Origin: Nonomuraea helvata
Lineage (GTDB): Bacteria; Actinomycetota; Actinomycetes; Streptosporangiales; Streptosporangiaceae
DNA: 64,000 nt
Direction of reading: 5' to 3'
NCBI RefSeq assembly: GCF_039535785.1
Contig: NZ_BAAAXV010000001.1
Span: 1,798,001-1,862,000, forward strand
Part shown: positions 50,450 through 64,000 of the stretch, piece by piece
Layout: the number at the start of each line of letters is the position of its first letter
Position numbering within the stretch: position 1 is the first letter of the stretch
Notes under the pieces: model-generated
What the model was told of the DNA's origin: nothing
What the model saw: the letters and a program-made list of their open reading frames with translations, nothing else
Databases searched by the model: none
Program-made: the position numbers and the translations under genes

Positions 50450-52515
50450 TTTTCCTCCTGATCGTCCGAGGCCGTGATGACCTCGATCTCCTCCGCGTAG
50501 TGGCAGGCGGCGCCGTGGTCCACGGCACGCGCCAGCCGAGCAACCGAGGGCTCTTCGTCCACACACCGCCGCTTCTCCGCCTCGCTGAGCGCGGCGAACT
50601 TGGGGCAGCGGGTACGGAACCGGCATCCCGACGGTGGGTCTGCCGGGCTGGGCAGGTCGCCTTCGAGCAGGATCCGCACGCGGGTGCGTTCCATCTCGGG
50701 GTCCGGCAGCGGGATCGCTGACAGCAGCGCCTGCGTGTAGGGGTGGGCGGGGCGGTCGTAGACGTTCTCGACCGTGCCGATCTCGGCGATCCTGCCCAGG
50801 TACATGACCGCCACGCGGTCGGCCAGGTGCCTGACCACGGCCAGGTCGTGGGCCACGAACAGGTACGACAGCCCCAGCCTGTTCTTCAGCTCCTCCAGCA
50901 GGTTGATCACACCCGCCTGGATGGAGACGTCGAGTGCCGAGACCGGCTCGTCCAGCACCAGCAGCTTCGGCTCGAGCGCGAGCGCGCGGGCGATGCCGAT
51001 GCGCTGGCGCTGACCGCCGGAGAACTGGGCCGGATAGCGCTCGGCGTGCTCAGGGGAGAGCCCGACGAGTTGGAGCAGCTCAGCGACCCTCTCGGCCACG
51101 TTCTTCTTGCCGTGCGCGCGCAGCGGCTCGGCGATGATGTCGCCGACCGGCATGCGCGGGTCGAGCGCGGCCATCGGGTCCTGGAAGACGATCTGCAGGT
51201 CTCGGCGCAGGCCCCTGCGCGCCGCGCCGTCGAGCTTGGCGCTGTCCTTGCCGAGCACCACGACCCGCCCGCCCTGCGGCGGCTCGAGCTGCATGATCTG
51301 CTGGAGCGTGGTGGTCTTGCCGCAGCCGGACTCGCCCACCAGCGCCAGCGTCTCGCCCTCGGCGATGTCGAAGCTGATGCCGTCCACCGCGAACACGGTG
51401 CCGACGCGGCGCTTGAAGACCGCGCCCTTCATCAGCGGGTAGTGCCTGATCATGTCGTCGAGCTCGAGCACCGTGGCGCGCTCGGTGCGCGGCACGCGTA
51501 CGACGTCGCTCGGCGGGATCACCGGCACGGGGAACACGTCGGCCCCCGTCAGGCCCTTGTGCTCGATCTCGTGCGAGCGGATGCACGCCACGTGGCGCCC
51601 GGCCCCGAACGGGGTGAGCGGCGGCTCCTCGTCGTCGCACATGTCCACCTTCATCGGGCAGCGCGGTGCGAACGGGCAGCCGGGCGGCAGCGCCGACGGG
51701 GAGGGCGGGTTGCCCTCGATGGGCACGAGCGGCCCCTCCTCGCCGTCGATCCGGGGGATCGAGGCGAGCAGCCCCATCGTGTACGGCATGCGCGGCCGGT
51801 AGTAGATGTCGTCCACCGGGCCCTGCTCGACCGGCCGGCCCGCGTACATGACCAGCACCCGGTCGGCCATGCCGGCGATGACGCCCAGGTCGTGGGTGAT
51901 CATCACGATGCCGGCGCCCGTCTCCCGCTGCGCGGTCTTGAGCACCTCCAGCACCTGCGCCTGGATGGTCACGTCGAGCGCGGTGGTCGGCTCGTCACAG
52001 ATCAGCAGGTCGGGGTCGTTGGCGATGGCCATGGCGATCATCGCCCGCTGGCGCATGCCGCCGGAGAACTCGTGCGGGAACGACTTGGCCCGCAGGTGCG
52101 GGTTCGGGATGCCGACCAGGTCGAGCAGCTCGACGGCCCGCTTGGCGGCCTTGTCCTTCGCCATTTTCTGGTGGATGCGCACGGCCTCGGCGATCTGGTC
52201 GCCGATCGTGTAGACGGGCGTGAACGCCGACAGCGGATCCTGGAAGATCATGCTGATCGTCTTGCCGCGGACCTTGATCTGCTCGTCCTCGTCCATGCCG
52301 AGCAGCTCACGGCCGTGCAGCTTGACCGAGCCGCTGACCACGGCCTTCGGCGGCAGCAGGCCCATGACCGCCAGCGAGGTCACCGACTTGCCGGAGCCGG
52401 ACTCACCCACGATGCCGAGCACCTCACCGGCCTCGACCTCGTAGCTGACGCCGCGCACGGCCTCGATGCCGCCGGGGAAGGTGACGGTGAGGTCCCTGAC
52501 CTCCAAGATGCTCAC
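50446..52515 (-). CDS. Peptide ABC transporter, two ATPase domains in one protein
   Basis: A 689-residue protein made of two complete nucleotide-binding domains. The first has Walker A GESGSGKS (about residues 36-43), signature FSGGMRQR and Walker B LLICDEPTTALD; the second has GESGCGKT, FSGGQRQR and LLVLDEPVSALD. Each ends in the Cys-rich oligopeptide-transporter motif (GCPFAPRCPMKVDMC and GCRFRTRCPKFAAL). It equals DppD and DppF joined in one chain, common in actinomycetes. Overlaps both neighbours by 4 bases. Confidence 0.94.
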   Translation of the reverse strand: MSILEVRDLTVTFPGGIEAVRGVSYEVEAGEVLGIVGESGSGKSVTSLAVMGLLPPKAVVSGSVKLHGRELLGMDEDEQIKVRGKTISMIFQDPLSAFTPVYTIGDQIAEAVRIHQKMAKDKAAKRAVELLDLVGIPNPHLRAKSFPHEFSGGMRQRAMIAMAIANDPDLLICDEPTTALDVTIQAQVLEVLKTAQRETGAGIVMITHDLGVIAGMADRVLVMYAGRPVEQGPVDDIYYRPRMPYTMGLLASIPRIDGEEGPLVPIEGNPPSPSALPPGCPFAPRCPMKVDMCDDEEPPLTPFGAGRHVACIRSHEIEHKGLTGADVFPVPVIPPSDVVRVPRTERATVLELDDMIRHYPLMKGAVFKRRVGTVFAVDGISFDIAEGETLALVGESGCGKTTTLQQIMQLEPPQGGRVVVLGKDSAKLDGAARRGLRRDLQIVFQDPMAALDPRMPVGDIIAEPLRAHGKKNVAERVAELLQLVGLSPEHAERYPAQFSGGQRQRIGIARALALEPKLLVLDEPVSALDVSIQAGVINLLEELKNRLGLSYLFVAHDLAVVRHLADRVAVMYLGRIAEIGTVENVYDRPAHPYTQALLSAIPLPDPEMERTRVRILLEGDLPSPADPPSGCRFRTRCPKFAALSEAEKRRCVDEEPSVARLARAVDHGAACHYAEEIEVITASDDQEEK

Positions 52516-53354
52516 GAGTTGCTCCCCGGGTCGAGTGCGTCACGGAGGCCGTCGCCGATCAGGTTCACGGCGAGCACCAGCAGCACCAGGAGGCCCGCGG
52601 GGAAGGCGAACAGCCATGGGTAGCCGGTGGCGTTGCCGGAGCCGGACGCGATCAGCGTGCCGAGCGAGACGTCCGGCGGCTGGATGCCGAAGCCGAAGAA
52701 GGACAGCGCCGCCTCGCCGATGATCGCGCCCGAGACGTTGACCGTCGCGTCGATGATCAGCAGCGAGGACATGTTGGGCACGATGTGCCGGAAAATGATC
52801 TTCCAGCGTGGGATGCCCATGTAGACAGCGGCCTGGACGTATTCGCGCTCACGCAACGAGATCGTCATGCTGCGTACCACTCTGGAGGTGATCATCCAGG
52901 AGAAGGCGGCCAGCAGCACCACGAACCAGAGCCAGGAGGAGCCCGCCTTGAGCCGCGGCGAGATGATGGCGATGATCAGGAAGCTGGGCAGGACCAGCAG
53001 CAGGTCCACGCCCCACATGAGCACCCTGTCCACCCAGCCGCCGAAATATCCGGCGAACGCGCCCACGACCGCGGCCACGCCGGTCGAGATGAGCGCGACC
53101 AGGAGGCCGATGACGATCGACTTCTGCATGCCGCGGAGCGTGATCGCGAACATGTCCTGGCCGATCGAGGTGGTGCCCCACCAGTGGTCGGCGTCGGGCG
53201 GTGACAGGAAGGCCATGAAGTCCTTCTCCTGCCAGTCGTACGAGCCGAAGTAGGGGCCGATGTAGGCCAGCGCCACCAGCAGGATCAGGGCGGCGAAGCC
53301 GTAGCGGGCCTGCTGGTTGCGGAGCAGGCGCCTGAGGACGACTTTCGAACGCAT
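52512..53354 (-). CDS. Peptide ABC transporter permease (DppC type)
   Basis: A 280-residue membrane protein with six membrane segments (ARYGFAALILLVALAYIGPY near residue 15; LVALISTGVAAVVGAFAGYF). The ATPase-contact loop is REYVQAAVYMGIPRWKIIFR at about residues 166-185, followed by HIVPN. It starts 1 base after the DppB-type stop and overlaps the ATPase gene start by 4 bases. Confidence 0.93.
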   Translation of the reverse strand: MRSKVVLRRLLRNQQARYGFAALILLVALAYIGPYFGSYDWQEKDFMAFLSPPDADHWWGTTSIGQDMFAITLRGMQKSIVIGLLVALISTGVAAVVGAFAGYFGGWVDRVLMWGVDLLLVLPSFLIIAIISPRLKAGSSWLWFVVLLAAFSWMITSRVVRSMTISLREREYVQAAVYMGIPRWKIIFRHIVPNMSSLLIIDATVNVSGAIIGEAALSFFGFGIQPPDVSLGTLIASGSGNATGYPWLFAFPAGLLVLLVLAVNLIGDGLRDALDPGSNS

Positions 53355-53355
53355 G

Positions 53356-54333
53356 TCAGCTCACCCGCACCCGAGGATCGAGGGCCGCCACCAGCACGTC
53401 GGACAGGAAGGCGGCGAACAGGACACAGACGGCGGTGAAGAAGGTCACCGCGGCGACGGAGTTGACGTCGTTCGCGTTGATCGAGTCCACCAGCCAGGCG
53501 CCCATGCCGTGCCAGGCGAAGATCTTCTCGGTGAACGTGGCTCCCGTGAACAGCGTGCCGAACGCGAAGGCGAAGTAGGTCGCGACGGGGATCAGCGCGG
53601 TGCGCAGCGCGTGCTTGGTCAGCGCCGTCCTGCGCCGCAGCCCCTTGGCCATCGCGGTGCGGACGAAGTCCTGGTTCAGCACGTCGAGCATCATGTTGCG
53701 CTGGATCCGGCTGTAGAAGGCGACCAGGCCGAGGCTCAGCGAGATGGTCGGCAGGATCAGGTGGTTCAGCCGGTTGACGAACTGGTCCCAGCCCGACAGG
53801 CGGGGGTTGTACTCACCGGTGTACTCGATCAGCGTGAAGCCGAGCCCTCTGTTCAGGTTGTACGTGGCGATCGCCAGCAGGGTCGCGAGTACGAGAACGG
53901 GGACCGCCATGATCACGAACGAGCCGACACCTATTAACCGGTCACTGAGCTTGTACTGCTCCACCGCGGACCACGCGCCCATGGCCACGCCGATGACGAA
54001 GCCCACGATCGTGCCGATGAGCATCAACCTGAGACTGACCATGATCCGGCGGCCCATCTCGGCGTTGACCGAGCCGCCGTTCCAGGTCTTGCCGAAGTCG
54101 CCGACGACGACGCCCTTCGCCCAGGTGGCGTACCGCAGGAGGACCGGGGTCTTGTCGTTCAGGTTGTAGGCGTCGAGGGTGCGGTCGATGACCTCCTCGG
54201 CGATCGGAGGCTGGCGGCCTTGGTACGCCGATCGCGGGTTCATCGTGCTGGCAGCGAGCATGTACGCCAGACTTGCCGCGATCACAACCAAGATCACATT
54301 TATAACCAACCTGCGGAGCAGGTACCTGCCCAT
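53356..54333 (-). CDS. Peptide ABC transporter permease (DppB type)
   Basis: A 325-residue membrane protein, first gene of the importer operon. The N-terminus GRYLLRRLVINVILVVIAAS is typical of DppB. Six membrane segments are predicted, with the contact loop DFVRTAMAKGLRRRTALTKH at about residues 221-240. ATG 54333 follows GGAGAG; an upstream in-frame start at 54372 has no such site. Confidence 0.92.
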   Translation of the reverse strand: MGRYLLRRLVINVILVVIAASLAYMLAASTMNPRSAYQGRQPPIAEEVIDRTLDAYNLNDKTPVLLRYATWAKGVVVGDFGKTWNGGSVNAEMGRRIMVSLRLMLIGTIVGFVIGVAMGAWSAVEQYKLSDRLIGVGSFVIMAVPVLVLATLLAIATYNLNRGLGFTLIEYTGEYNPRLSGWDQFVNRLNHLILPTISLSLGLVAFYSRIQRNMMLDVLNQDFVRTAMAKGLRRRTALTKHALRTALIPVATYFAFAFGTLFTGATFTEKIFAWHGMGAWLVDSINANDVNSVAAVTFFTAVCVLFAAFLSDVLVAALDPRVRVS

Positions 54334-54675
54334 TACTCTCCGTTCGCGCTGACCGGGGACACGTGCTTCCATCCGGAGAGGTGTCCCCGCAACGAAAACC
54401 CATCTCGGGCTGCGAAAATCACAAGCACCTCGAGATGGCGATCAACGCGCAGAATATAAGCAAAAATGTAACAGTCAGAAACCGTTGGACATAACGGTCA
54501 GGTCACTCGCAATAGCCATCCGAAGGTGGTCAGGCACCTTACCAAACCCGTCCCGACCTGCGCAAACGCCCCTCATTTGGACATCATTTACGGCGTCCGC
54601 CGGGCGCCAGTGTCACAGAATCCGGACATAATTTGACGATCACGGAAAGTGGCCCACTTCACGTCGATCTGATCG
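54334..54675 (-). promoter_or_regulatory. Promoter region of the peptide importer with two inverted repeats
   Basis: A 342-base region without a gene. On the minus strand TATATT (54453-54458) is a candidate -10 box, with no convincing -35. Upstream of it are two inverted repeats of the same 6-6-6 layout: ACCGTT-GGACAT-AACGGT (54481-54498) and AAGGTG-GTCAGG-CACCTT (54523-54540). The region is AT-rich compared with the coding DNA. The repeats may bind a regulator of peptide uptake. Confidence 0.5.
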
Positions 54676-55656
54676 TCAAGTGAGTTCGGACAACACCCTG
54701 ATCACAGCCTCGTACGTGTCCCGCACGCCGTCGCCGCTGCCCAGGCGGTGGCGCTCCAGCCGGACCGCCCCGAGGTGACGCACCTCATAGAGCAGGAAAC
54801 GCCAGGTCGCGGCCGCGCCGCGGGCCGGCTCCCCGTACCCCTCCCAGAACGCCACGCGCTCGTCCGGCTTCTTCGCGACCATGCGCATGGTCCAGTCGGC
54901 CGCCGGGTCGCCCCACAGGGTCCGGTCCAGGTCGAGCACGCCGGTGATCGTCGGCTTGGGGGCTCCGGCGGCGATCATGGTGTTGACCGTCCACAGGTCG
55001 CCGGCGAGCAGGCGGGGCTCGGTGATCTCGTCGAGCACCGTACGGTTCTCCCCGGCGAGTGCGGCGGCCTTGCGGAGGTCGGCGGCCTCCAGCCCCGCGC
55101 GGTCGAGGTCGGCCGCGATGTCCTCCAGCGAGGCGATGACGGCCTGGCTCCAGGTGGCGTGCCCGCCGCCCGCCACCGGCCCGAACGCCGGGCCGCGTAC
55201 CTGGTGGATCTTCCTGGTGATCTCCCCGAGCTGGCGGAAGAACGGTGCCCAGGCCGGTCGGGGGTAGTCCGGCAGCCCTTCGGGCGCCGGGACCCCGTCG
55301 AGGAGGGTCTGCACGAGGTAGTCACGGCCGATCAGCTCGTGCGACCAGTCGGCCGCGATCACCCGCGGCATCAGCGGGGCGATGACGGCGAGGTACGGCA
55401 CCGTGGCGTACTCGTTGCGCATCAACTGCCGCTCGGAGGGGAACTGCGCGCCGGGCTCGGGCGCGAACCGCACCACCACGGGCCGCGCCTCGCCGTCGAC
55501 GGTGACGCGATAGGTGCTGTTGTACGCGCCCAGCCCGAGCTCGACGGCGGACCGGGCGTCCCGGCCGAAGACGCGGCGGCACACGGCCTGGATGTGGTCG
55601 GGGGCCACCGGCCGCTGGAACGCGTCACCGGCCCGCTCGATCGCCTTGAACTCCAT
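54676..55656 (-). CDS. Aminoglycoside phosphotransferase (APH)-like kinase
   Basis: A 326-residue protein with the APH/choline-kinase fold. GLGAYNSTYRVTVDGEARPV (about residues 41-60) is the glycine-rich loop; PVVVRFAPEP takes the place of the usual VLK segment. The catalytic loop LLAGDLWTVNTMI (about 217-229) has Ala for the usual His before Gly-Asp, and GVLDLDRTLWGDPAADW is the metal-binding motif. The altered loop makes an aminoglycoside resistance role doubtful; another small alcohol is more likely. Its end is 342 bases from the importer start on the same strand. Confidence 0.8.
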   Translation of the reverse strand: MEFKAIERAGDAFQRPVAPDHIQAVCRRVFGRDARSAVELGLGAYNSTYRVTVDGEARPVVVRFAPEPGAQFPSERQLMRNEYATVPYLAVIAPLMPRVIAADWSHELIGRDYLVQTLLDGVPAPEGLPDYPRPAWAPFFRQLGEITRKIHQVRGPAFGPVAGGGHATWSQAVIASLEDIAADLDRAGLEAADLRKAAALAGENRTVLDEITEPRLLAGDLWTVNTMIAAGAPKPTITGVLDLDRTLWGDPAADWTMRMVAKKPDERVAFWEGYGEPARGAAATWRFLLYEVRHLGAVRLERHRLGSGDGVRDTYEAVIRVLSELT

Positions 55657-55809
55657 CCGGCCATCTTCCTACGCCCGCCGGCTCGGATTCGCCATGGTCA
55701 CACCGGCCGTGTTCACCATGGGCACCGGTTTACTCACTCACCGCCTTTACCGCGAGTCGATATGACTGCTCGGACGAGGGTTGTGTTCTGTCTCGATGTG
55801 AGAGACGAT

Positions 55810-55821
55810 CTCTCTAGAGAG
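55810..55821. promoter_or_regulatory. CTCTCTAGAGAG palindrome upstream of the P450 gene
   Basis: A perfect 12-base palindrome 42 bases before the P450 start, next to a second repeat AGAGA-CGA-TCTCT (55801-55813). It lies in the 207-base region between the divergent APH-like kinase and the P450 gene and is a candidate operator for the P450 operon. Confidence 0.45.
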
Positions 55822-55863
55822 CTTGGCATCTGATTAGGCTGGACAGCCGGTTAGAGGGGCCTC

Positions 55864-57033
55864 TTGTCGGAAATCATTGACCACGACCCCATTATCTCCC
55901 TCGCCTCTCCCGACCTCCTTGTCAATCCTTATCCCGGGTACGAAAGCATTCGCCGGGAAAGGCCGGTGTTTTTCTACGACCGCCTTGACTCATGGATTTT
56001 CACTCGGTACGACGATTGCGTCGCCGTGCTGAAGGACAGTGCGAGCTTCGCCGCCGACTGGCGCCGGGTCGGCGAGAAGATGCCGCCGCGGGCGATCAAC
56101 ATGCTGACCCTGGACCCACCGGAGCACACCGTGGTCCGGCGGCTGTTCATGGAGGCGCTGCGCGCGCAGGACCACACGGCCCTGGAGCGGATGATCGAGC
56201 AGCACACGACCGAACTGCTGGCCACGCTGGCCCGCCGTCCGTCGTTCGAGTTCCTCACGGAGTTCGCCGAACCGCTGGCGCTGTCGACGACCTCCGCGTA
56301 CCTGGGCGTGCCGACGCCGGATCCGGCCTGGTCCAGCCGGATCGCCCGCGACATCGTCGCCGGAATGGACGCCGGGCTCTGGCCCGAGCGGGCACGACCC
56401 GTGCTGGCGGCGCAGGAGGAGCTGGCCGTGCTGGTCGAGGAGTGGCTCGCCCATCCGCCGCCCACCGGCGTCGTCGGCGTCATCGCGGAACGGGCGGCCG
56501 GCAGCGGCGTGGACCCGGCCATCATCGAGAACACTGTCAGAGGGCTGCTGTTCAGCGGCTACAGCTCCGGCAGCAAGCTGCTCGGGCTGGTGGCGATCGC
56601 CCTGCTCCACGAGCGGGCCGCCGAGCTGGAGCGGTTTCGGGCGGCCGACACCGCACGGGCCGTCGAGGAGATGGTCCGCTACGCCTCCCCGATCCAGGCG
56701 GTCGCCCGCGCGTGCGTGCGCGACACCGAACTGGGCGGCGTCGAAGTGCGTGCGGGACAGGCGGTCACGCTGCTCCTGGGCGCGGCCAACCGGGATCCCG
56801 CACGGTTTCCCGACCCCGGCACGGTACGGCTCGACCGCCATCCCAATCCGCATCTCGGCTTCGGCCGGGGCCCGAAGTCGTGCCTCGGCTCGCCCTTTAC
56901 AGCCGTCTTCACCCGGGTGGTGCTCCGCGTACTCGCCGAGCGGTATCCCGGCATCAGGGCGCTCAGCGCGCCGACGTATTTCCCGAACCTGACAGCGCGC
57001 AGCGTTGAGCGTTTCGAGGTCGCCTTTCGGTGA
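55864..57033 (+). CDS. Cytochrome P450, candidate peptide cross-linking enzyme
   Basis: A 389-residue bacterial P450. The heme motif LGFGRGPKSCLG contains the thiolate ligand Cys340; the ExxR motif is EEMVR in the K-helix; LTLDPPEHTVVRRLF (from residue 81) is the usual substrate-side segment. The I-helix is unusual: the expected AGxxT oxygen-activation motif reads SGYSSG (residues 231-236). The TTG start follows GAGGGG. It is the first gene of a co-directional set with a sulfotransferase 11 bases after it, a methyltransferase and the MRYWY mini-gene. By analogy with biarylitide clusters, it may join the aromatic side chains of that peptide; this is inferred from proximity only. Confidence 0.92.
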   Translation: MSEIIDHDPIISLASPDLLVNPYPGYESIRRERPVFFYDRLDSWIFTRYDDCVAVLKDSASFAADWRRVGEKMPPRAINMLTLDPPEHTVVRRLFMEALRAQDHTALERMIEQHTTELLATLARRPSFEFLTEFAEPLALSTTSAYLGVPTPDPAWSSRIARDIVAGMDAGLWPERARPVLAAQEELAVLVEEWLAHPPPTGVVGVIAERAAGSGVDPAIIENTVRGLLFSGYSSGSKLLGLVAIALLHERAAELERFRAADTARAVEEMVRYASPIQAVARACVRDTELGGVEVRAGQAVTLLLGAANRDPARFPDPGTVRLDRHPNPHLGFGRGPKSCLGSPFTAVFTRVVLRVLAERYPGIRALSAPTYFPNLTARSVERFEVAFR

Positions 57034-57044
57034 AGGAGGATTAC

Positions 57045-57677
57045 GTGCTGAAGGTCGTCGGAGCCTCGTACGGGCGCACCGGGACCACTTCCGTTCGATT
57101 AGCTCTGGAAACCCTCGGGTTCGGCCCCTGCCATTACATGAGGGAGCTTTTCACCAGCCCCGCGCATGCCCAGGAATGGCTGCGGGTCGCCGAGGGCGGT
57201 GCACCCGATTGGAAACGGCTGCTCGACGGTTTCGCCTCGACGATCGCGTGGCCCGCCGCCTTCTACTGGCGAGAGCTCGCCGCCGTCTTTCCCGAGGCGA
57301 AAGTCCTGCTGATCGTGCGGGATCCGGCCTCGTGGTACGCCAGCATGCGCCGCACGCTGTACCGCACCAGGCCCGCGGGGGCCGGGCCGGCGGCGAACGT
57401 GCGGGACCAGGTCATCGAGAAGATCGTCTGGCAGGGCACGTTCTCCGGGCGATTCGAGGATCGCGACCACGCCATCGGCGTCTACCTCGCGCATCTGGAC
57501 GAGGTACGCGAGGCCGTGCCGTCCGGCCGACTGATCGAGTTCGAGCCGTCGCATGGGTGGGAGCCGCTCTGCGCGGCTCTGGGGGTCGGCGTGCCGGATG
57601 TGCCTTTTCCCACGGCGAACACCACTGATGAATATCTGCGCCGCGCCGAGCAGGCCGGGGTCCTCCCGCCACGGTGA
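57045..57677 (+). CDS. Sulfotransferase-family protein
   Basis: A 210-residue protein with the P-loop-like PAPS-binding start VVGASYGRTGTTSVRLALET (from about residue 4) and FGPCHYM, as in the Sulfotransfer_4 group. The 3-prime phosphate region is VLLIVRDPASWYASM (about residues 87-101). The GTG at 57045 is chosen because AAGGAGG lies 5 bases upstream; an earlier GTG at 57030 would overlap the P450 stop. It transfers sulfate from PAPS to an acceptor hydroxyl in known members. A tyrosine or other hydroxyl of the locus product is a possible acceptor. Confidence 0.86.
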   Translation: MLKVVGASYGRTGTTSVRLALETLGFGPCHYMRELFTSPAHAQEWLRVAEGGAPDWKRLLDGFASTIAWPAAFYWRELAAVFPEAKVLLIVRDPASWYASMRRTLYRTRPAGAGPAANVRDQVIEKIVWQGTFSGRFEDRDHAIGVYLAHLDEVREAVPSGRLIEFEPSHGWEPLCAALGVGVPDVPFPTANTTDEYLRRAEQAGVLPPR

Positions 57678-57708
57678 GAACGCGGTGTGGGCAGGAGAGG
57701 ACAGGGAA

Positions 57709-58470
57709 GTGTCGCTCACCGTCTCATCCACCACCGACCCGTACGGAGTGGCGGCGGCTTATTGGGACCGCCTTCACATTGGGCCCGGCTCAGCAGCGCT
57801 GGTCTCCTTCTTCGCCGGCCTGGCCCCGCCCGGCGGCCACGCGCTGGAGATCGGCCCCGGTACCGGCCGGGTGACCCTGGCGGTGGCCGGGCGTGTGGCG
57901 AGCGTGCACTGCCTTGAGCCCTCCCCCGCGATGCGTGCGGTGCTCATGACCAAGCTGGCCGCGGAGCCGGACCTGCGGGATCGGGTGACCGTGCTCGGCG
58001 CCGCCGCGCCGGACTTCCGTTTTGGCCGGCGCTTCGACTACATCTACCTGGCCGCCGTGTACGAGGACGTGCCGCCGGAGGCGCGCCGGCCGCTCTTCGC
58101 CGCCTTGGCCGAGTGCCTCGCACCGGGTGGCGTGCTGGCCATGGACATGGTGACCGACGAGGCCGTCCCCGACCATCCCCAGCGCGAAGTGCGCAGCGCG
58201 CGCCAGGGAGAGTGCCGCTACACCCTGTCGTCGGCCGTCTGGCCGCTCGGCCCCGACCTGGCCGGGGTGCGGCGCGTGTACCGCACCTACCACCGCGACA
58301 CGCTGGTGGCCACCGAGACCACGAAAGGCGACTACCACCTCCATCGGCCCGCCGACGTGCTCGCCGATCTGCGCGCGGCCGGCCTGACCGCCGTGGGCGG
58401 CTCAGCCGTCACCGACGAGGTGACCCCGCTCGACGACAAGGGAACGCTGATCGCCCGGCACGACAGCTGA
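57709..58470 (+). CDS. SAM-dependent methyltransferase
   Basis: A 253-residue class I methyltransferase. Motif I is ALEIGPGTGRVTLAVAG (from about residue 45), the acidic end of strand 2 is CLEPSP, and the later motif is CLAPGGVLAMDMVTDE. The C-terminal lobe (RRVYRTYHRDTLVATETTKG) belongs to small-molecule N- or O-methyltransferases. The GTG at 57709 follows GGAGAGG; an in-frame GTG at 57685 is weaker. The gene lies between the sulfotransferase and the MRYWY mini-gene. Methyltransferases also accompany P450s in cittilin-type peptide loci, which supports a tailoring role. Confidence 0.88.
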   Translation: MSLTVSSTTDPYGVAAAYWDRLHIGPGSAALVSFFAGLAPPGGHALEIGPGTGRVTLAVAGRVASVHCLEPSPAMRAVLMTKLAAEPDLRDRVTVLGAAAPDFRFGRRFDYIYLAAVYEDVPPEARRPLFAALAECLAPGGVLAMDMVTDEAVPDHPQREVRSARQGECRYTLSSAVWPLGPDLAGVRRVYRTYHRDTLVATETTKGDYHLHRPADVLADLRAAGLTAVGGSAVTDEVTPLDDKGTLIARHDS

Positions 58471-58482
58471 CCCCTTTGAGCT

Positions 58483-58535
58483 CGAGGCTCCCCTGAACGG
58501 CCCACGCCATGTCGCCAGGTGCCGTTCGGGCCTCG
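58483..58535 (+). promoter_or_regulatory. Interrupted hairpin upstream of the mini-gene
   Basis: CGAGGC (58483-58488) pairs with GCCTCG (58530-58535), and GAACGGC (58495-58501) pairs with GCCGTTC (58521-58527), closing a 19-base loop. It sits 13 bases after the methyltransferase stop and 55 bases before the mini-gene. It may end the upstream transcript in part or shape the 5-prime leader of the mini-gene. Confidence 0.6.
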
Positions 58536-58589
58536 AAACCCGTCCATCGGACCTCGATGGGCGGCAGCGGCGAGTCAAGGAGGTGCGCC

Positions 58590-58607
58590 ATGCGGTACTG
58601 GTACTGA
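58590..58607 (+). CDS. Pentapeptide gene MRYWY, candidate biarylitide-type RiPP precursor
   Basis: An 18-base reading frame ATG-CGG-TAC-TGG-TAC-TGA. A perfect Shine-Dalgarno sequence AAGGAGG (58577-58583) lies 6 bases upstream, one of the best in the window. The peptide Met-Arg-Tyr-Trp-Tyr has the MRY-x-aromatic format of biarylitide precursors such as MRYYH, in which a P450 joins the side chains of residues 3 and 5 and the Met-Arg leader is then removed. Here the core would be Tyr-Trp-Tyr. Known precursor genes usually lie directly before the P450; this one is about 1.6 kb after it, behind two tailoring genes. Alternative: an aromatic leader peptide of an attenuator. Translation is well supported by the site; function is inferred. 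Confidence 0.65.
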   Translation: MRYWY

Positions 58608-58616
58608 CCGATTCGA

Positions 58617-58661
58617 CCGTGGCCTGATCCTGCGGCCTGATCCTGCGCGATCAGGCCACGG
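58617..58661 (+). terminator. Hairpin with two alternative 5-prime arms after the mini-gene
   Basis: CCGTGGCCTGATC (58617-58629) pairs perfectly with GATCAGGCCACGG (58649-58661). A second copy of the arm, GGCCTGATC (58634-58642), can pair with the same 3-prime arm over a shorter loop, because GGCCTGATCCTGC is repeated in tandem. It begins 10 bases after the mini-gene stop and ends 39 bases before the FAD monooxygenase start. There is no U-tract. It may be a terminator, or a switch between two structures. Confidence 0.7.
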
Positions 58662-58700
58662 CCTGGCAGCCACGCACCGACACGAACGGGGAGTCGTCTG

Positions 58701-60341
58701 ATGCTCCAGTCCCACGAGACTGAGGTGCTGGTCGTCGGGGGCGGCCTCACCGGGTTGTCCTGCGTGCTGTTCCTCGCTCATCACGGCGTACGGTGCACGC
58801 TCGTGGAGCGCCACCCCGACCTGCTGAGCCATCCCAGGCAGCGCAGCCTGGTCCCACGCCTCATGGAGATCTACCGGCAGGTCGGACTGGAATCCCGGAT
58901 CCAGCAGAATCGGGTGGATTTCGCGAGTTCCGCCGAATACACGGCCATCCGCGCGGAGACGCTGGCCAGTGCGCGGTACCTCCCCGTGGACCAGCAGGAT
59001 GACGCCGCGCGAACCGCCGCCTTCAGCCCCTGCACCGGCACCCCCATCGATCAGAACCGGGTGGAGGCTCTGCTGCGGGCACGGGCGCGCGAGCTCGGCG
59101 CACGGATCCGGTTCGGCACCGAGCTGCTCGGCCTCGCCCGGCATGAGGCGGGGGTGGAGGCGCGGCTGCGCGATCTCGACGGCGCCGGGCACCGGCTCGT
59201 GGCCCGGTACGTCGTCGCGGCCGACGGCGGGCGCAGCCCGGTCCGGCACCTGCTCGGGATTCCGATGGAAGGGCCGGTCGACTTCTTCCGTCTGCTGACG
59301 CTGATGGTCGACGCCGACCTCCGGCCCGCGCTGGCCGGCCGTACCGCGCACATGGCCTTCCTCGAACGACCCCGGCCGAGGACGTACCTGATGGCGCTGG
59401 ACCGGACGGGTCAGCGCTGGGTCTTCGGCACCACGGACGGTCCGGGCGACGCCGCGCCGGACGAGGACGAATGCATCGAACTGGTACGTGCCGCGGCCGG
59501 CCTGCCGGCGGTGCCGGTGGTGCTCCGGCCGCAGATACCCGGCACCGCCAGGACCGTCCTGCGGTTCGAGGTCGGCGCGGCCGTGGCGGCCGCGTACCGG
59601 AAGGGGCCGGTGTTCCTGATCGGCGACGCGGCGCATCTCATGCCGCCGACCGGTGGATTCGGCGGTGTCGTGGGCGTGGAGGACGCGCACAACCTGGCCT
59701 GGAAGCTGGCCGCCGTCGTGCATGGTCACGCCGGGGAGGGGCTGCTCGACACGTACGAGGACGAGCGCCGCCCGGTCGCGGCGTTCGCCCTGCGGCAGGC
59801 GCTCGCGCGGTACCGGTCCCGCCTGGCTTCCGGGGAAACCCTGGCACAGCTCCCCATGGCCGATGACCAGCCGGTGGACCGCTCGACCGTGATGATGGGA
59901 CACCGCTACCGGTCTACGGCGGTGGCAGGCGGCGTGAGCGATCCGACCGCGCCGGCGGAGATCTCCGGCCTGTGCGGAGATCCCGGCACCAGGGCTCCCC
60001 ATCTCCCGCTCGCCGGCTCCGGCGAGCGGTCCACGATCGACCTGTACGGCGGGCGCTTCGTCCTGCTCGCCGGCCCCGACGGCCAGGACTGGGTGTCGGC
60101 GGCAGGCAAGCTGCCGTTGCCGGTGACCGCCCGGCGGTTCGGGACCGACATCGCCGCAGCCGGCACCCCCGCGTCCGACGCCGCCGCCCGGCACGGCATC
60201 GGAGCAGGCGGTGCGGTGCTGGTGCGCCCGGACGGCTTCGTGGCCTGGCGCAGCACGGGGCCGGTCACGGACCCCGCCGCGGAACTGCTCGCCGCGTTCA
60301 CCGCCATCCTGTCCCGTGACCAGGAGGCGCGGACCGAATGA
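58701..60341 (+). CDS. FAD-dependent aromatic monooxygenase
   Basis: A 546-residue group A flavoprotein hydroxylase. The dinucleotide fold is EVLVVGGGLTGLSCVLFLAH (from residue 7). The DG motif is VAADGGRSPVRHLLG, and the FAD ribityl motif is LIGDAAHLMPPTGGFGG. A thioredoxin-like C-terminal domain (about residues 430-546, IDLYGGRFVLLAGPDG) is typical of the RdmE/PgaE branch that hydroxylates aromatic rings with NADPH. The gene lies 93 bases after the mini-gene and its neighbours include no polyketide synthase, so a tyrosine- or tryptophan-derived substrate is a reasonable idea. An ATG with GGGGAG just upstream is the start. Confidence 0.9.
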   Translation: MLQSHETEVLVVGGGLTGLSCVLFLAHHGVRCTLVERHPDLLSHPRQRSLVPRLMEIYRQVGLESRIQQNRVDFASSAEYTAIRAETLASARYLPVDQQDDAARTAAFSPCTGTPIDQNRVEALLRARARELGARIRFGTELLGLARHEAGVEARLRDLDGAGHRLVARYVVAADGGRSPVRHLLGIPMEGPVDFFRLLTLMVDADLRPALAGRTAHMAFLERPRPRTYLMALDRTGQRWVFGTTDGPGDAAPDEDECIELVRAAAGLPAVPVVLRPQIPGTARTVLRFEVGAAVAAAYRKGPVFLIGDAAHLMPPTGGFGGVVGVEDAHNLAWKLAAVVHGHAGEGLLDTYEDERRPVAAFALRQALARYRSRLASGETLAQLPMADDQPVDRSTVMMGHRYRSTAVAGGVSDPTAPAEISGLCGDPGTRAPHLPLAGSGERSTIDLYGGRFVLLAGPDGQDWVSAAGKLPLPVTARRFGTDIAAAGTPASDAAARHGIGAGGAVLVRPDGFVAWRSTGPVTDPAAELLAAFTAILSRDQEARTE

Positions 60342-60353
60342 CGAACGGTGCCG

Positions 60354-61106
60354 TCACGGCATCCACTTGCCGCCCGCGACGTCGATCGTGAGCCCGGTGA
60401 GCCATGACGACGCCTCGGAGGCGAGGAAGGCGGTCACGTTCGCCACGTCGAGCGGCGTGCCGAGCCGCCCGATCGGGTGCTCGGCCAGCAGCCGCTCCTG
60501 GAACTCCGCCGGCATCCGCTCCTCCAGCCGCTCCGTCATGATCGTCGACGGGGCGACCGCGTTGACCCGGATCCCGGTGGGGCCGAGCTCGTAGGCCAGT
60601 TGCCTGGTCAGCGCGATGACTCCGGCCTTGGCCGCCGTGTACGCCACCGACGCGGCGGTCGGGGTACGGGCCGCCAGCGACGACATCGTGATGATCGATC
60701 CGCTCCGCCGCTCCCTCATGCGGGGCAGGAAGCTCCCGATGGTGAGGAACGCCGAGGTGAGGTTGGCGTTCACGGTGGCGTGCCAGTCCTCCACGCTCAT
60801 CTGGTCGATGGGCCGCGGCATCCCGGTCCCGCCCCCGGCGAAGGCCGCCAGCACGTCCACGGGCCCGAGCCGCCGCTCGACCTCCTCCCGCATCGCCTCG
60901 ACGGCGGCGAAGTCGGTGATGTCGGCGGCCACGCCGATCGCCGCGCCGCCGATCCCCTTCACGGCCGCCTCGACGGTCACCGGGTCACGCCCGTTGACCA
61001 CGACCCGCATCCCCTGCTCGGCCAGCACCCGAGCGGTCTCCCGCCCGATCCCGCCGGAGCCGCCGGTGATCAGCGCCACCTTGCCCTGCAGGTCTGGGTA
61101 CATCAT
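60354..61106 (-). CDS. Short-chain dehydrogenase/reductase
   Basis: A 250-residue SDR. Cofactor motif GKVALITGGSGGIGRETARV (about residues 8-27), then NGRDP suggesting NADP(H), NAG-like FAGG, catalytic Ser in MSSLAART, and YTAAK with Tyr and Lys. The C-terminus ends GLTIDVAGGKWMP. Two consecutive ATG codons (61106 and 61103) are possible starts. It converges on the FAD monooxygenase gene with 12 bases between stops, so it is probably not part of the same unit. Confidence 0.9.
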   Translation of the reverse strand: MMYPDLQGKVALITGGSGGIGRETARVLAEQGMRVVVNGRDPVTVEAAVKGIGGAAIGVAADITDFAAVEAMREEVERRLGPVDVLAAFAGGGTGMPRPIDQMSVEDWHATVNANLTSAFLTIGSFLPRMRERRSGSIITMSSLAARTPTAASVAYTAAKAGVIALTRQLAYELGPTGIRVNAVAPSTIMTERLEERMPAEFQERLLAEHPIGRLGTPLDVANVTAFLASEASSWLTGLTIDVAGGKWMP

Positions 61107-61293
61107 GGCTTCCACTCCCTCTGCGCTTCGCGGCCGTCCCTTGGGAGTACAGGTTGCCCTGTGCGGGTGGCCGGGGACATCAGGCGCGAGGGGCGTTTCC
61201 CGCTGCGCCCGCGGGCGTGCGCCGGGGTCGCTGCCCATACTCCTCAGGTCGTACGCGGGGGCATGCGCTGAGGCGGCACGGAGCACGTAATCG

Positions 61294-61686
61294 TCACAGA
61301 ACGGGTGTGACGTCGGTGTGAACGAAATCGTCGCCCTTGAAGAGCAGCGGCTCACGACAGTCTCTTGCCAGCGCATAGGAGAAGCAGTCGCCGAAGTTCA
61401 GCCCAGCCTTGTGACCGCTCCCCTTGCCGTAGTCCCAGTAGGCCCGGCGGGCGATGCGTACCTGCTGCAATGTGACAGGCATGATCTCGACCTTCATCCT
61501 GCTCAGGAAATCGTCCAGGAGCCGGGAAGCGGCCGGATCGCGCGTACGCTCGACCACGGCGGCCATCTCCAGATAGGTCGCGGCCGACATACGACGCAAC
61601 GCGGCATCTCGGATGGCTTCGGTAAAGGCGGCGGCATCCGGCTCGCCCTTGAGGATCGCGACGATCGCGCTGGTGTCAATGATCAC
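61294..61686 (-). CDS. vapC: PIN-domain ribonuclease toxin VapC
   Basis: A 130-residue PIN-domain protein. The acidic active site is provided by Asp4 in MIIDTSAIVAIL, Glu40 in YLEMAAVVE, and the Asp of NFGDCFSYALA with LFKGDDF after it. Its ATG overlaps the antitoxin stop (ATGA), as usual in VapBC pairs. Known members cut tRNA or rRNA when the antitoxin is degraded. Confidence 0.93.
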   Translation of the reverse strand: MIIDTSAIVAILKGEPDAAAFTEAIRDAALRRMSAATYLEMAAVVERTRDPAASRLLDDFLSRMKVEIMPVTLQQVRIARRAYWDYGKGSGHKAGLNFGDCFSYALARDCREPLLFKGDDFVHTDVTPVL

Positions 61687-61943
61687 GCGGGGAGACCCGT
61701 TTCGGAGTCATACAGGAAGTCAGTGGACAGATCCGCGTCCCTCAACCTCGAGCGGATCTTCGCGGCGAGCGCGAGCAGATCTTCCGCCATCGTGGCGTCC
61801 TCCTCCTCCCGACTCTTGGCGAGCAGGCGCTCACGCCGCTCGCGCAGGGCGGAGATGACGGCTGCGGTCTTGCTCTCTCCCGTAAGCGCGCCGATCTCCG
61901 CTGCCAGCCGCTCGGCCTCGGGGTTCTTGATGTTCAGGCTCAC
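61683..61943 (-). CDS. vapB: Antitoxin VapB
   Basis: An 86-residue protein beginning MSLNIKNPEAERLAAEIGAL, the N-terminal DNA-binding part of the VapB/PSK group, with LTGESKTAAVISALRERRER after it. The C-terminal half (DLSTDFLYDSETGLPA at the end) would bind and block VapC. First gene of the pair. Two direct repeats upstream are likely autoregulatory sites. Confidence 0.93.
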   Translation of the reverse strand: MSLNIKNPEAERLAAEIGALTGESKTAAVISALRERRERLLAKSREEEDATMAEDLLALAAKIRSRLRDADLSTDFLYDSETGLPA

Positions 61944-61954
61944 AGCCTCTCCCC

Positions 61955-61989
61955 TTCTACCCTGTCCTTACTCAGATTCTACCCTTTCT
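61955..61989. promoter_or_regulatory. Direct repeats upstream of vapBC
   Basis: TTCTACCCTGTCC (61955-61967) and TTCTACCCTTTCT (61977-61989) lie 22 bases apart, two helical turns, 12-46 bases before the vapB start. They are probable binding sites of the VapBC complex. Confidence 0.6.
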
Positions 61990-62111
61990 ACCATCGAGTC
62001 TCTTTGTCTTCCCCCGGCCTTCAGCGTGCGCCTGGCCATGCAGTCGGCGAAATAGCGTTCCTGCAGCGCATAGGGACGGTACCCCTCCACGACAGCCGGA
62101 ACGGCGAATGC

Positions 62112-62146
62112 GGCCGGCCGTTCCCGTGCAGGGGGAACGACCGGCC
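62112..62146 (-). terminator. Terminator hairpin after the small monooxygenase gene
   Basis: GGCCGG-C-CGTTCCC (62112-62125) pairs with GGGAACG-A-CCGGCC (62133-62146) with a single internal mismatch, giving a 13-bp stem. It lies 7 bases beyond the stop of the minus-strand gene. Confidence 0.8.
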
Positions 62147-62152
62147 TGGTCG

Positions 62153-62443
62153 CTAGGGCGCCTCGACCAAGGTGCGCAGGGTCAGTGGCCGGGCGAGTAT
62201 CCGGTCAAGGACCCGCTGGGCGTGACGCAGGTGCGGGGTGGTGAAGTGCTCGTCGAAGGCCTGCCGGTTCTCCCAGCGTTCCACGATCACCATGGAGGCG
62301 GGGTCGTTGGGGTCGGCGTAGGCCTGGTAGGCGAGGCAACCGGGTTCGTCCAGCGTCGGCTCGATCAGAGCTTCCAGCGCCGTACGGAGCCGGTCATGCT
62401 GGCCAGGCGCGGCCAGGAACTCGGCGATCACGAAAAGGGACAT
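62153..62443 (-). CDS. Antibiotic biosynthesis monooxygenase (ABM)-type small oxygenase
   Basis: A 96-residue protein of the ABM/YgiN ferredoxin-like fold: FVIAEFLAAPGQHDRLRTAL at the start, PGCLAYQAYADPNDPASMVI in the middle (about residues 34-53) and ERWENRQAFDEHFTTPHLRH. Such dimers act on quinols or aromatic polyketides without cofactor. It follows the aldo/keto reductase gene by 13 bases and is probably co-transcribed. General detoxification of quinones is the simplest role. Confidence 0.9.
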   Translation of the reverse strand: MSLFVIAEFLAAPGQHDRLRTALEALIEPTLDEPGCLAYQAYADPNDPASMVIVERWENRQAFDEHFTTPHLRHAQRVLDRILARPLTLRTLVEAP

Positions 62444-62456
62444 GACGCGGCCTCCT

Positions 62457-63515
62457 TCACACGTGGCGGGCCGGGCCGCTGCCCGCGCCGGACACGGTGA
62501 TCGCGGTGGTGATCTCCTCGAGGTCGGCGGGAGTCAGCTCCAGCGAGCCGGCGCCGATCCAGCCGTCCACCTGAGCGGCCGCGCGTGCGCCCACGATCGC
62601 GCCGGTGATGCCCGGCCAGGCCAGTACCCAGGCGATGGCGACCTCGGCCACGGTGCGGCCATGACGCTCGGCGATCGGGCGCAGCGCTTCGGCGAGCCGG
62701 AGGTTGGCGGTCAGGCCGGTGGTGAAGTCGTGGTGAGCGGTGCGCCAGTCCTCGGCGGGCAGGCCGGCCACGCGCTCGGCGGAGAAGGCCCCGGTGAGCA
62801 GACCGGACTGCAGCGGCGAGTAGACGATGACACCGGTCTCGTGGGCATGGGCCCAGGCGATCTCGGCGGCGGCCGACCGGTTGATCGCCGAGAACGGCGG
62901 CTGGATGACATCGACATGCGCGATCTGCTCGGCGGCCTCCAGCAGGTCGGGCGTGTGGTTGGACAGCCCGATCGCCCGGACCTTGCCTTCGGCCTTCAAA
63001 TCGGCCATGACCTGCCAGTACTCCTCCAGCGGCGTGGCGTTGGGCGACATCGCGCCGAACCCGCCGCCGGCGTACTCCAGCGACTCGCCGGTGTCGGGAT
63101 AGTGCACCTGGTACAGGTCGATGTGATCGACGCCCAGCCGCCGCAGCGAGTCTTCGAGCTCGCGGCGGACGCTGGCGGGCTTCATGATGCGCCGGGGCGC
63201 GGCCGACGGGTTGTCCGGGTCCCAGACCAGGCCGACCTTGGTGAACAGGTACGGGCGGTCGGTCTCGGGCAGGTCGGCGACCGCCTTGCCGACCAGTTCC
63301 TCCGAATGGCCCAGGCCGTAGACGGCGGCGGTGTCGATCCAGTTGACGCCGGCCTCCAGCGCGTGGCGGATCGCGGCGACCGACTCGGCGTCGTCCGTGG
63401 CACCCCAGCTGAAGCGCCAGCCCGAGCCCGACACGGCCCACAAACCGAAGCCCAACCTGGTGATCTCCATATCGGTACGCCCGAGCCGGTGGACGGGCAA
63501 CTGCGAAGACGTCAC
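62457..63515 (-). CDS. Aldo/keto reductase
   Basis: A 352-residue NADPH-dependent reductase. The barrel shows RLGFGLWAVSG, the catalytic Asp and Tyr in WIDTAAVYGLGHSEELVGKA, Lys in LFTKVGLVW, and His in DLYQVHYPD. The C-terminal cofactor region has AIAWVLAWPGITGAIVGARA. The GTG at 63515 is chosen because GGAGG lies 9 bases upstream; the longer frame to 63584 has no such site. It is divergent from the MmyB-like regulator, an arrangement common for such oxidoreductases, and precedes the ABM-type gene. Confidence 0.9.
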   Translation of the reverse strand: MTSSQLPVHRLGRTDMEITRLGFGLWAVSGSGWRFSWGATDDAESVAAIRHALEAGVNWIDTAAVYGLGHSEELVGKAVADLPETDRPYLFTKVGLVWDPDNPSAAPRRIMKPASVRRELEDSLRRLGVDHIDLYQVHYPDTGESLEYAGGGFGAMSPNATPLEEYWQVMADLKAEGKVRAIGLSNHTPDLLEAAEQIAHVDVIQPPFSAINRSAAAEIAWAHAHETGVIVYSPLQSGLLTGAFSAERVAGLPAEDWRTAHHDFTTGLTANLRLAEALRPIAERHGRTVAEVAIAWVLAWPGITGAIVGARAAAQVDGWIGAGSLELTPADLEEITTAITVSGAGSGPARHV

Positions 63516-63686
63516 GTGCGTGAACCTCCAAGGTCTTGCCGCCACGGTGTGCCCGAGGCGGCGCCGGAGCCGTTCCGGCGCCACCTACTGTGGGCGGGCG
63601 GCCGCGGCTCTGCCAGCGGCAGCGCGTGCCTGGGCACGCCATGACCAGGCACGTACAGGCGCGGGTCCGCGATACTGGAGGGCATG

Positions 63687-64000
63687 ATGTTGGATCGACG
63701 TGCCGAGCTGGGCGAGTTTCTCCGGTCCCGGCGGGCCCGGCTGCGTCCGGAAGAGCTCGGCCTGACCGCGTACGGGCAGCGGCGCCGCGTCCCCGGGCTG
63801 CGGCGCGAAGAGCTGGCGCAGCTGGCCGGGGTCAGTGTCGACCACTACATCCGGCTGGAACAGGGACGCAGCCTGCACTTCTCCGCCGAAGTGCTGGACG
63901 CGGTGGCCCGGGCGCTGCGGCTGGACGCCGCCGAACGCGCGCACCTGCATCGCCTGGCCCGCCCCGCTCCGCCCGTTCCGCCCGGCTTGCCCGCCGCAGC
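63687..64000 (+). CDS. MmyB-like XRE-family regulator (partial)
   Basis: The first 104 residues of a helix-turn-helix regulator, cut by the window end. FLRSRRARLRPEELGLTAYG and then RRRVPGLRREELAQLAGVSV plus HYIRLEQGR are the signature of the actinobacterial MmyB-like group. The missing C-terminal part should be a PAS-like ligand-binding domain. Of two consecutive ATG codons, 63687 has the better distance from GGAGG. Members often repress a divergent reductase gene, here the aldo/keto reductase. Confidence 0.88.
   Translation, partial: MLDRRAELGEFLRSRRARLRPEELGLTAYGQRRRVPGLRREELAQLAGVSVDHYIRLEQGRSLHFSAEVLDAVARALRLDAAERAHLHRLARPAPPVPPGLPAA

Follow-up and report, generated by a model that had tools for sequence, protein, structure and literature searches.

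An 18-bp gene for the pentapeptide MRYWY in Nonomuraea helvata, a probable biarylitide precursor gene among conserved, putative tailoring genes

Introduction

Is a reading frame of 18 bp, lying behind a cytochrome P450 gene, a gene in its own right and, if so, what would the P450 make of its peptide? This question is raised by a 64,000-nucleotide stretch of the Nonomuraea helvata genome (hereafter, the window), in which an initial annotation had read the pentapeptide MRYWY as a candidate precursor of a new biarylitide type. Based on a comparison of related loci across actinomycetes, we conclude with high confidence that positions 58590-58607 encode MRYWY as a biarylitide precursor, and that the P450 probably forms a C-C bond between Tyr3 and Tyr5.

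The mini-gene and its ribosome-binding site

The genes of the locus are collected in Table 1. The window reads TCAAGGAGG TGCGCC ATGCGGTACTGGTACTGA at the start of the mini-gene, that is, AAGGAGG, six bases and ATG, and the frame was confirmed to lie, as initially described, 3' of the P450, sulfotransferase and methyltransferase genes on the same strand. Biarylitide precursor genes are recognized as 18-bp genes for M-x-Y-x-(Y/H/W) with a ribosome site on their 5' side and a P450 gene nearby. Here, the 18 bp encode MRYWY and a stop, AAGGAGG precedes the ATG by six bases, and 1,556 bp separate bytA from the P450 stop, within the 3-kb search range of a 2026 study; an older rule of 500 bp for the bytA-bytO distance fits neither this locus nor the published MRYWY clade. 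The ATG is 119 bases past the methyltransferase stop, and the gaps between the P450 and sulfotransferase genes and between the sulfotransferase and methyltransferase genes are 11 and 31 bases, respectively.

Table 1. Features of the bytA locus (positions in the window)
Feature	Positions	Strand	Basis and remarks
BytO-type cytochrome P450 (bytO), predicted Tyr3-Tyr5 cross-linker	55864..57033	+	TTG start; PDB matches, tree, triad
Sulfotransferase (PF17784)	57045..57677	+	GTG start; Pfam 1.1e-56
Class I SAM methyltransferase, predicted N-methyltransferase	57709..58470	+	Pfam, model, folds, PDB sequence
Ribosome-binding site AAGGAGG	58577..58583	+	sequence
bytA, predicted precursor peptide MRYWY	58590..58607	+	frame ATG CGG TAC TGG TAC TGA
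Stem-loop, perfect 13-bp stem	58617..58661	+	9 bases past bytA stop
FAD-dependent aromatic monooxygenase (RubL/RdmE/GrhO5-like)	58701..60341	+	Pfam PF01494, PF21274; RubL 5e-96

A precursor gene on the 5' side of the P450 was considered and rejected: when 49001-64000 was scanned for short frames (4-9 residues) that have Arg in second and an aromatic residue in third position, no other one with a ribosome site came up, and a wider pattern matched nowhere else in the genome.

So short a frame might be functionless and have arisen by chance, and the bare pattern and its backward control do occur with similar frequency. Within the order, the motif ATGMRNTAYTGGTAYTRR matched 5 of 345 genomes, including one (G603) whose match ends in TGG rather than a stop and was dropped; for the control, the pattern read backward, these 345 genomes yielded 6 hits. 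The bare motif is therefore not usable as evidence. Once the ribosome site is counted, the picture is different. The pattern GGAG-N4..11-ATGMRNTAYNNNYAYTRR has a single match in the 11.26-Mb genome, with none for the control, and for MRYWY with a ribosome site a sample of 396 genomes from the phylum gave one match, N. helvata itself, while the 354 genomes searched in the family around Stackebrandtia albiflava gave three, the S. albiflava genome among them (control 0 in both). A further match, to MRYWH in genome G415, was not counted, as there is no related P450 within 1.5 kb. The initial argument that a chance match is unlikely thus holds for the frame together with its ribosome site (1 vs 0 in the genome) but fails for the bare motif (5 vs 6). 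Further, the ribosome site, the place and the sequence have all been kept at seven loci, spread over no fewer than three families, while the flanks diverged, and the probability that the frame is a functionless accident is, in our judgment, negligible.

Conservation of the MRYWY frame

A scan for related P450s yielded 80 loci, of which the best 40 (L002-L041) were scanned for mini-genes; the remainder (L042-L081) have P450s of at most 33% identity. MRYWY with a ribosome site was found at four of the best 40 (L002-L005) and a five-residue frame ending in His at 31 (L007-L037), while the mini-gene scan found neither at L006 and L038-L041. Two more MRYWY loci with ribosome sites (L096 and L097) came from the whole-genome pattern searches. 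Besides the window, the MRYWY loci are L002 (N. jabiensis), L003 (Actinomadura barringtoniae), L004 (S. albiflava), L005 (A. xylanilytica), L096 and L097, and in all seven the mini-gene lies 0.8-1.6 kb 3' of an orthologous P450. The frame is thus kept, with its ribosome site, in six other actinomycete genomes that retain the P450.

In an alignment of five loci, the window and L002-L005, the differences within bytA are confined to the last base of the Arg codon, which is CGG or CGT, and to the stop, which is TGA or TAG; L096 has CGC for Arg, and none of these differences changes the peptide. The AGGAG of the ribosome site is invariant in the same five loci, whereas the flanks of L003-L005 align poorly. 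In A. barringtoniae (L003:8605-8626), the methyltransferase stop and the start of bytA are one base apart and the bytA ribosome site falls within the methyltransferase coding region; both genes are therefore very likely on one transcript. Taken together with the P450, which falls among biarylitide enzymes as described below, this conservation supports the reading of a biarylitide-type precursor, and it is very likely that the MRYWY frame is a real biarylitide precursor gene. Both checks by which the initial annotation could have been refuted, on the frame in relatives and on the clade of the P450, were carried out, and its reading withstood them.

Contrary to the initial suggestion, neither the type nor its arrangement is new. 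Padva et al. (JACS Au, July 2026, PMC13417212) described six MRYWY clusters among 277, and since this kind of gene has been in print from that date, the gene in the window is one more member. Their clade, founded on Stackebrandtia nassauensis and including AciB of Actinocatenispora rupis, shares with the window the identical pentapeptide, a precursor about 1.4-1.5 kb 3' of bytO (about 1,400 bp in S. nassauensis) and, in most members, a sulfotransferase (five of the six published clusters; PMC13417212); the window differs in being from a Nonomuraea-type genome. The position of the precursor 3' of the P450 is likewise in that paper, and the nearest MKYWH mini-genes also lie directly 3' of their P450s (e.g., P450 stop at 7092 and mini-gene at 7142 in L010).

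Several other loci have arrangements of their own. The separation of bytA from bytO, called unique to the MRYWY clade within the set of PMC13417212, is also found in Nonomuraea solani (L034:4675-7161) and N. basaltis (L035:3477-5974), where a gene of about 1.1 kb lies between the P450 and an MRYLH mini-gene; in L034 the intervening gene encodes a nitric oxide synthase (PF02898), and that in L035 is alike by its first residues. Actinomadura sp. J1-007 carries a tandem pair of MRYRH mini-genes 3' of one P450 (L030:7218 and 7299). In Nocardioides speluncae (L006:3542-3559), an MRYIR frame with a ribosome site is located about 50 bases 3' of the P450, adjoined by an inverted sulfotransferase gene; residue 5 is non-aromatic here, yet the P450 retains H234.

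The P450 and the predicted cross-link

The best PDB sequences for the P450 are 9EBY, 8SPP, 9M47, 8SPC and 22YX (1e-89 to 7e-89, titled "Cytochrome P450"), followed by five at 6e-75 to 1e-71 and then a drop to 6e-39. We take 8SPC and 8SPP to be P450Blt, an assignment also suggested by the fit of A-x-x-H-x-x-x-E to A231, H234 and E238. Its own genome has no second P450 of this kind (863 bits to itself, 131 to the next best).

The P450 tree comprised 32 rows including all seven MRYWY enzymes (30 rows and five MRYWY enzymes in an earlier tree); 17 of the 31 His-5 loci were taken in, with near-copies from Streptomyces left out. The P450 was placed with the biarylitide enzymes: all seven from MRYWY loci group on a single branch (100/100), whose sister is a group of four Actinomadura MKYWH enzymes (95/86), a topology that derives Tyr-5 from His-5 systems. 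The MKYWH biarylitides (e.g., AchB of Actinomadura hibisca, the species of L010) share with the window the mini-gene 3' of the P450 and, in some cases, a related methyltransferase. However, they have His at position 5, keep H234 in the P450 and have the mini-gene directly behind it, and no monooxygenase of the window's type was found at their loci.

The P450Blt system of Micromonospora sp. MW-13 is of the same enzyme family with a five-residue precursor, and its P450 is 41.5% identical to that of the window over the part compared, but its substrate is MRYLH, its link Tyr-His and its triad A231/H234/E238 (PMC10929621). These three residues were reported as specificity residues, and changing two of them shifted P450Blt toward Tyr-X-Tyr substrates; in the best-defined case, H234L-E238N, a C-O link was made from MRYLY (PMC10929621). 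The corresponding I-helix positions are Gly/Phe/Ser in all seven MRYWY enzymes, whereas His occupies the middle position in each of the 18 His-5 enzymes that were compared (those of 17 loci, plus P450Blt), as well as in L006. The triad therefore fits the change of substrate but, given the C-O product of H234L-E238N, does not by itself predict a C-C bond. Moreover, because the seven Gly/Phe/Ser enzymes form one clade, the link between triad and Tyr-5 counts as one evolutionary event.

Which residues would be joined was initially left between a Tyr-Tyr and a Tyr-Trp link, and the former is now favored: in vitro, AciB converted Nle-RYWY to a single product of -2 Da with a Tyr3C-Tyr5C bond (PMC13417212). 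A C-C link was also reported for SlyP (MRYAY) in the same paper. It could be argued that the precursor is real and that the P450 nevertheless joins Tyr to Trp, or makes a Tyr-O-Tyr ether, since AciB accepts Trp at position 5 (PMC13417212) and the engineered double mutant of P450Blt forms a C-O link from MRYLY (PMC10929621). Against this, the peptide with the native core gave the one Tyr3C-Tyr5C product with AciB (PMC13417212), and all seven MRYWY P450s have the same three I-helix residues; we regard such an outcome as unlikely.

Sulfotransferase, methyltransferase and flavin monooxygenase

Gene neighbors were counted at 39 loci (the window, L002-L037, L096 and L097), several of which are at contig ends (e.g., L006, L016, L025, L029 and L035). 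A sulfotransferase is present at six of the seven MRYWY loci (none was found at L005) and at 2 of the 32 others, and the methyltransferase at 7/7 and 6/32, respectively. The FAD monooxygenase, which the initial annotation did not list, is present at 7/7 MRYWY loci and 0/32 others, a count to be read with several of the 39 loci incomplete at contig ends. An APH-like gene upstream in the window has no counterpart at any of the other 38 loci.

The tailoring roles that we propose for the three enzymes are inferred from family, fold and neighborhood; in the published work, savT/savH gave no modified product (PMC13417212). The nearest folds to the methyltransferase model (mean pLDDT 87) are mostly enzymes titled as sugar or peptide N-methyltransferases (KedS8, CalS10, TylM1 and CypM, with MtfA lower), and the best PDB sequence is 3G2M (MtfA, 1.6e-11). 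The PDB sequence search gave no match titled CorZ, which may be absent there, and a literature search on PCZA361.24 found no match. The product of 57709..58470 is thus predicted to be an N-methyltransferase; N-methylation remains at the level of prediction because C-methyltransferases share the fold.

In the case of the monooxygenase, identity alone is weak, as a paralogue in the window's own genome is 47.2% identical, compared with 47.5% for the L097 enzyme and 50.8% for that of L004. In a tree, however, the seven monooxygenases form one branch (100/99) against the five nearest paralogues, all from the window's own genome, and the flavin monooxygenase likely belongs to the pathway as a further tailoring enzyme. 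A homologue of aspartyl/asparaginyl beta-hydroxylase lies between bytA and the monooxygenase gene in L004, L096 and L097 and occurs also in L010, L014, L017 and L030-L033; none was found in the window, L002, L003 or L005. A Pfam scan of six neighboring proteins found no nitric oxide synthase, the gene that accompanies the P450 in Tyr-nitrating systems of the rufomycin type.

Taken together, the pathway might proceed as follows. MRYWY would be made by the ribosome, and the P450 would oxidize Tyr3 and Tyr5 and couple both rings across Trp4. Met-Arg would then be removed by a peptidase encoded elsewhere, after which the freed N-terminus could be methylated, as CorZ methylates the free N-terminus in myxarylin biosynthesis once the leader is removed (PMC12951456). 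Finally, a phenol may be sulfated by the sulfotransferase and an aromatic ring may gain a hydroxyl from the flavin monooxygenase, the order of the last tailoring steps being a guess. The myxarylin system (BytA MNYLH, BytO and BytZ/CorZ) likewise combines a P450 with a methyltransferase, but is myxobacterial and has a Tyr-His C-N link, and the main text of PMC12951456 has no mention of a sulfotransferase for it. In 2021, it was stated that the non-myxobacterial biarylitide sequences lacked a methyltransferase gene (PMC8708641); as worded there, this no longer holds.

No product from S. nassauensis or A. rupis was detected in native or heterologous hosts (PMC13417212), so the MRYWY clusters may be silent or their product unforeseen. 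We tentatively suggest, as a reading that is less likely than not, that the MRYWY clusters are a distinct pathway, in which His changed to Tyr at residue 5 through the Gly/Phe/Ser change in the P450 and an aromatic flavin hydroxylase was recruited. Its product might be a biaryl macrocycle with an arylomycin-type ring, made from Tyr-Trp-Tyr and carrying an N-methyl group, a ring hydroxyl and a sulfate, and the hydroxylase might be the factor missing from the failed product searches.

The stem-loop behind bytA

Between the mini-gene and the monooxygenase gene lies a stem-loop, also not listed in the initial annotation, which is likely a terminator or attenuator and probably stops or reduces transcription from the operon into the gene that follows. 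A stem-loop of partly different sequence is found 3' of bytA in L002, L003, L005, L096 and L097, while that of L004 is weak and not exceptional (z -1.0; rank 0.42). In the window, L002, L003 and L005, the bytA stem is the longest perfect inverted repeat of at least 11 bp in 8 kb; that of L096 ties with another repeat, and the stems of L004 and L097 fall below the 11-bp list. Only the stem length is exceptional in the window and L002, as the fold energy of the whole segment is not (ranks 0.28 and 0.24), and the palindrome core has two further sites in the window's own genome. Relative to N. jabiensis (L002), the window hairpin contains 13 additional bases, which copy a portion of the hairpin's own 5' arm and lengthen the loop. 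A sigma-70 promoter scan had no match, and the bytA hairpin, which has no T run, was not among the results of the terminator scan.

A hairpin 3' of bytA as a general biarylitide rule was rejected. Among 28 of the 37 records with a mini-gene (nine from Streptomyces were left out), the stem was in the top 5% of its own locus in 14 and the fold energy in the lowest 5% in 12. Because the background is the whole locus, mostly coding, these figures indicate a tendency only.

The stem raises another explanation, namely that the frame is a leader-peptide attenuator, in which the Tyr/Trp-rich mini-frame together with the hairpin would respond to charged tRNA(Trp/Tyr) and so regulate the flavin monooxygenase gene. 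The mini-frame does contain one Trp and two Tyr codons, with a strong stem 9 bases past the stop and the gene for an aromatic-ring enzyme next. However, MKYWH, MRYLH and MRYRH frames adjoin related P450s without such a monooxygenase gene at the loci examined, another gene intervenes between mini-gene and monooxygenase in L004, L096 and L097, and a published MRYWY P450 accepts the peptide itself (PMC13417212). We therefore consider attenuation by the peptide very improbable, and retain the reading of bytA as a precursor gene.

Implications for MRYWY biarylitides

To the published MRYWY clusters this analysis adds the Gly/Phe/Ser triad, the flavin monooxygenase, the hairpin, the predicted N-methyltransferase-like methyltransferase and a Nonomuraea-type member. 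The main text of PMC13417212 has no mention of Nonomuraea, a methyltransferase, a monooxygenase, a flavin or a hairpin, although its Figures S1/S2 and Table S1 may list this cluster or these genes. With the Gly/Phe/Ser signature, Tyr-Tyr enzymes can be told from Tyr-His enzymes simply by sequence, for the present in a single clade. The putative flavin hydroxylase and the methyltransferase are conserved in MRYWY clusters and go unmentioned in that main text, and since no MRYWY product was detected in culture (PMC13417212), the conserved gene set tells which genes to co-express. More generally, bytA shows that 18-bp genes, which are missed by gene finders, can be found from raw sequence and tested by comparison.
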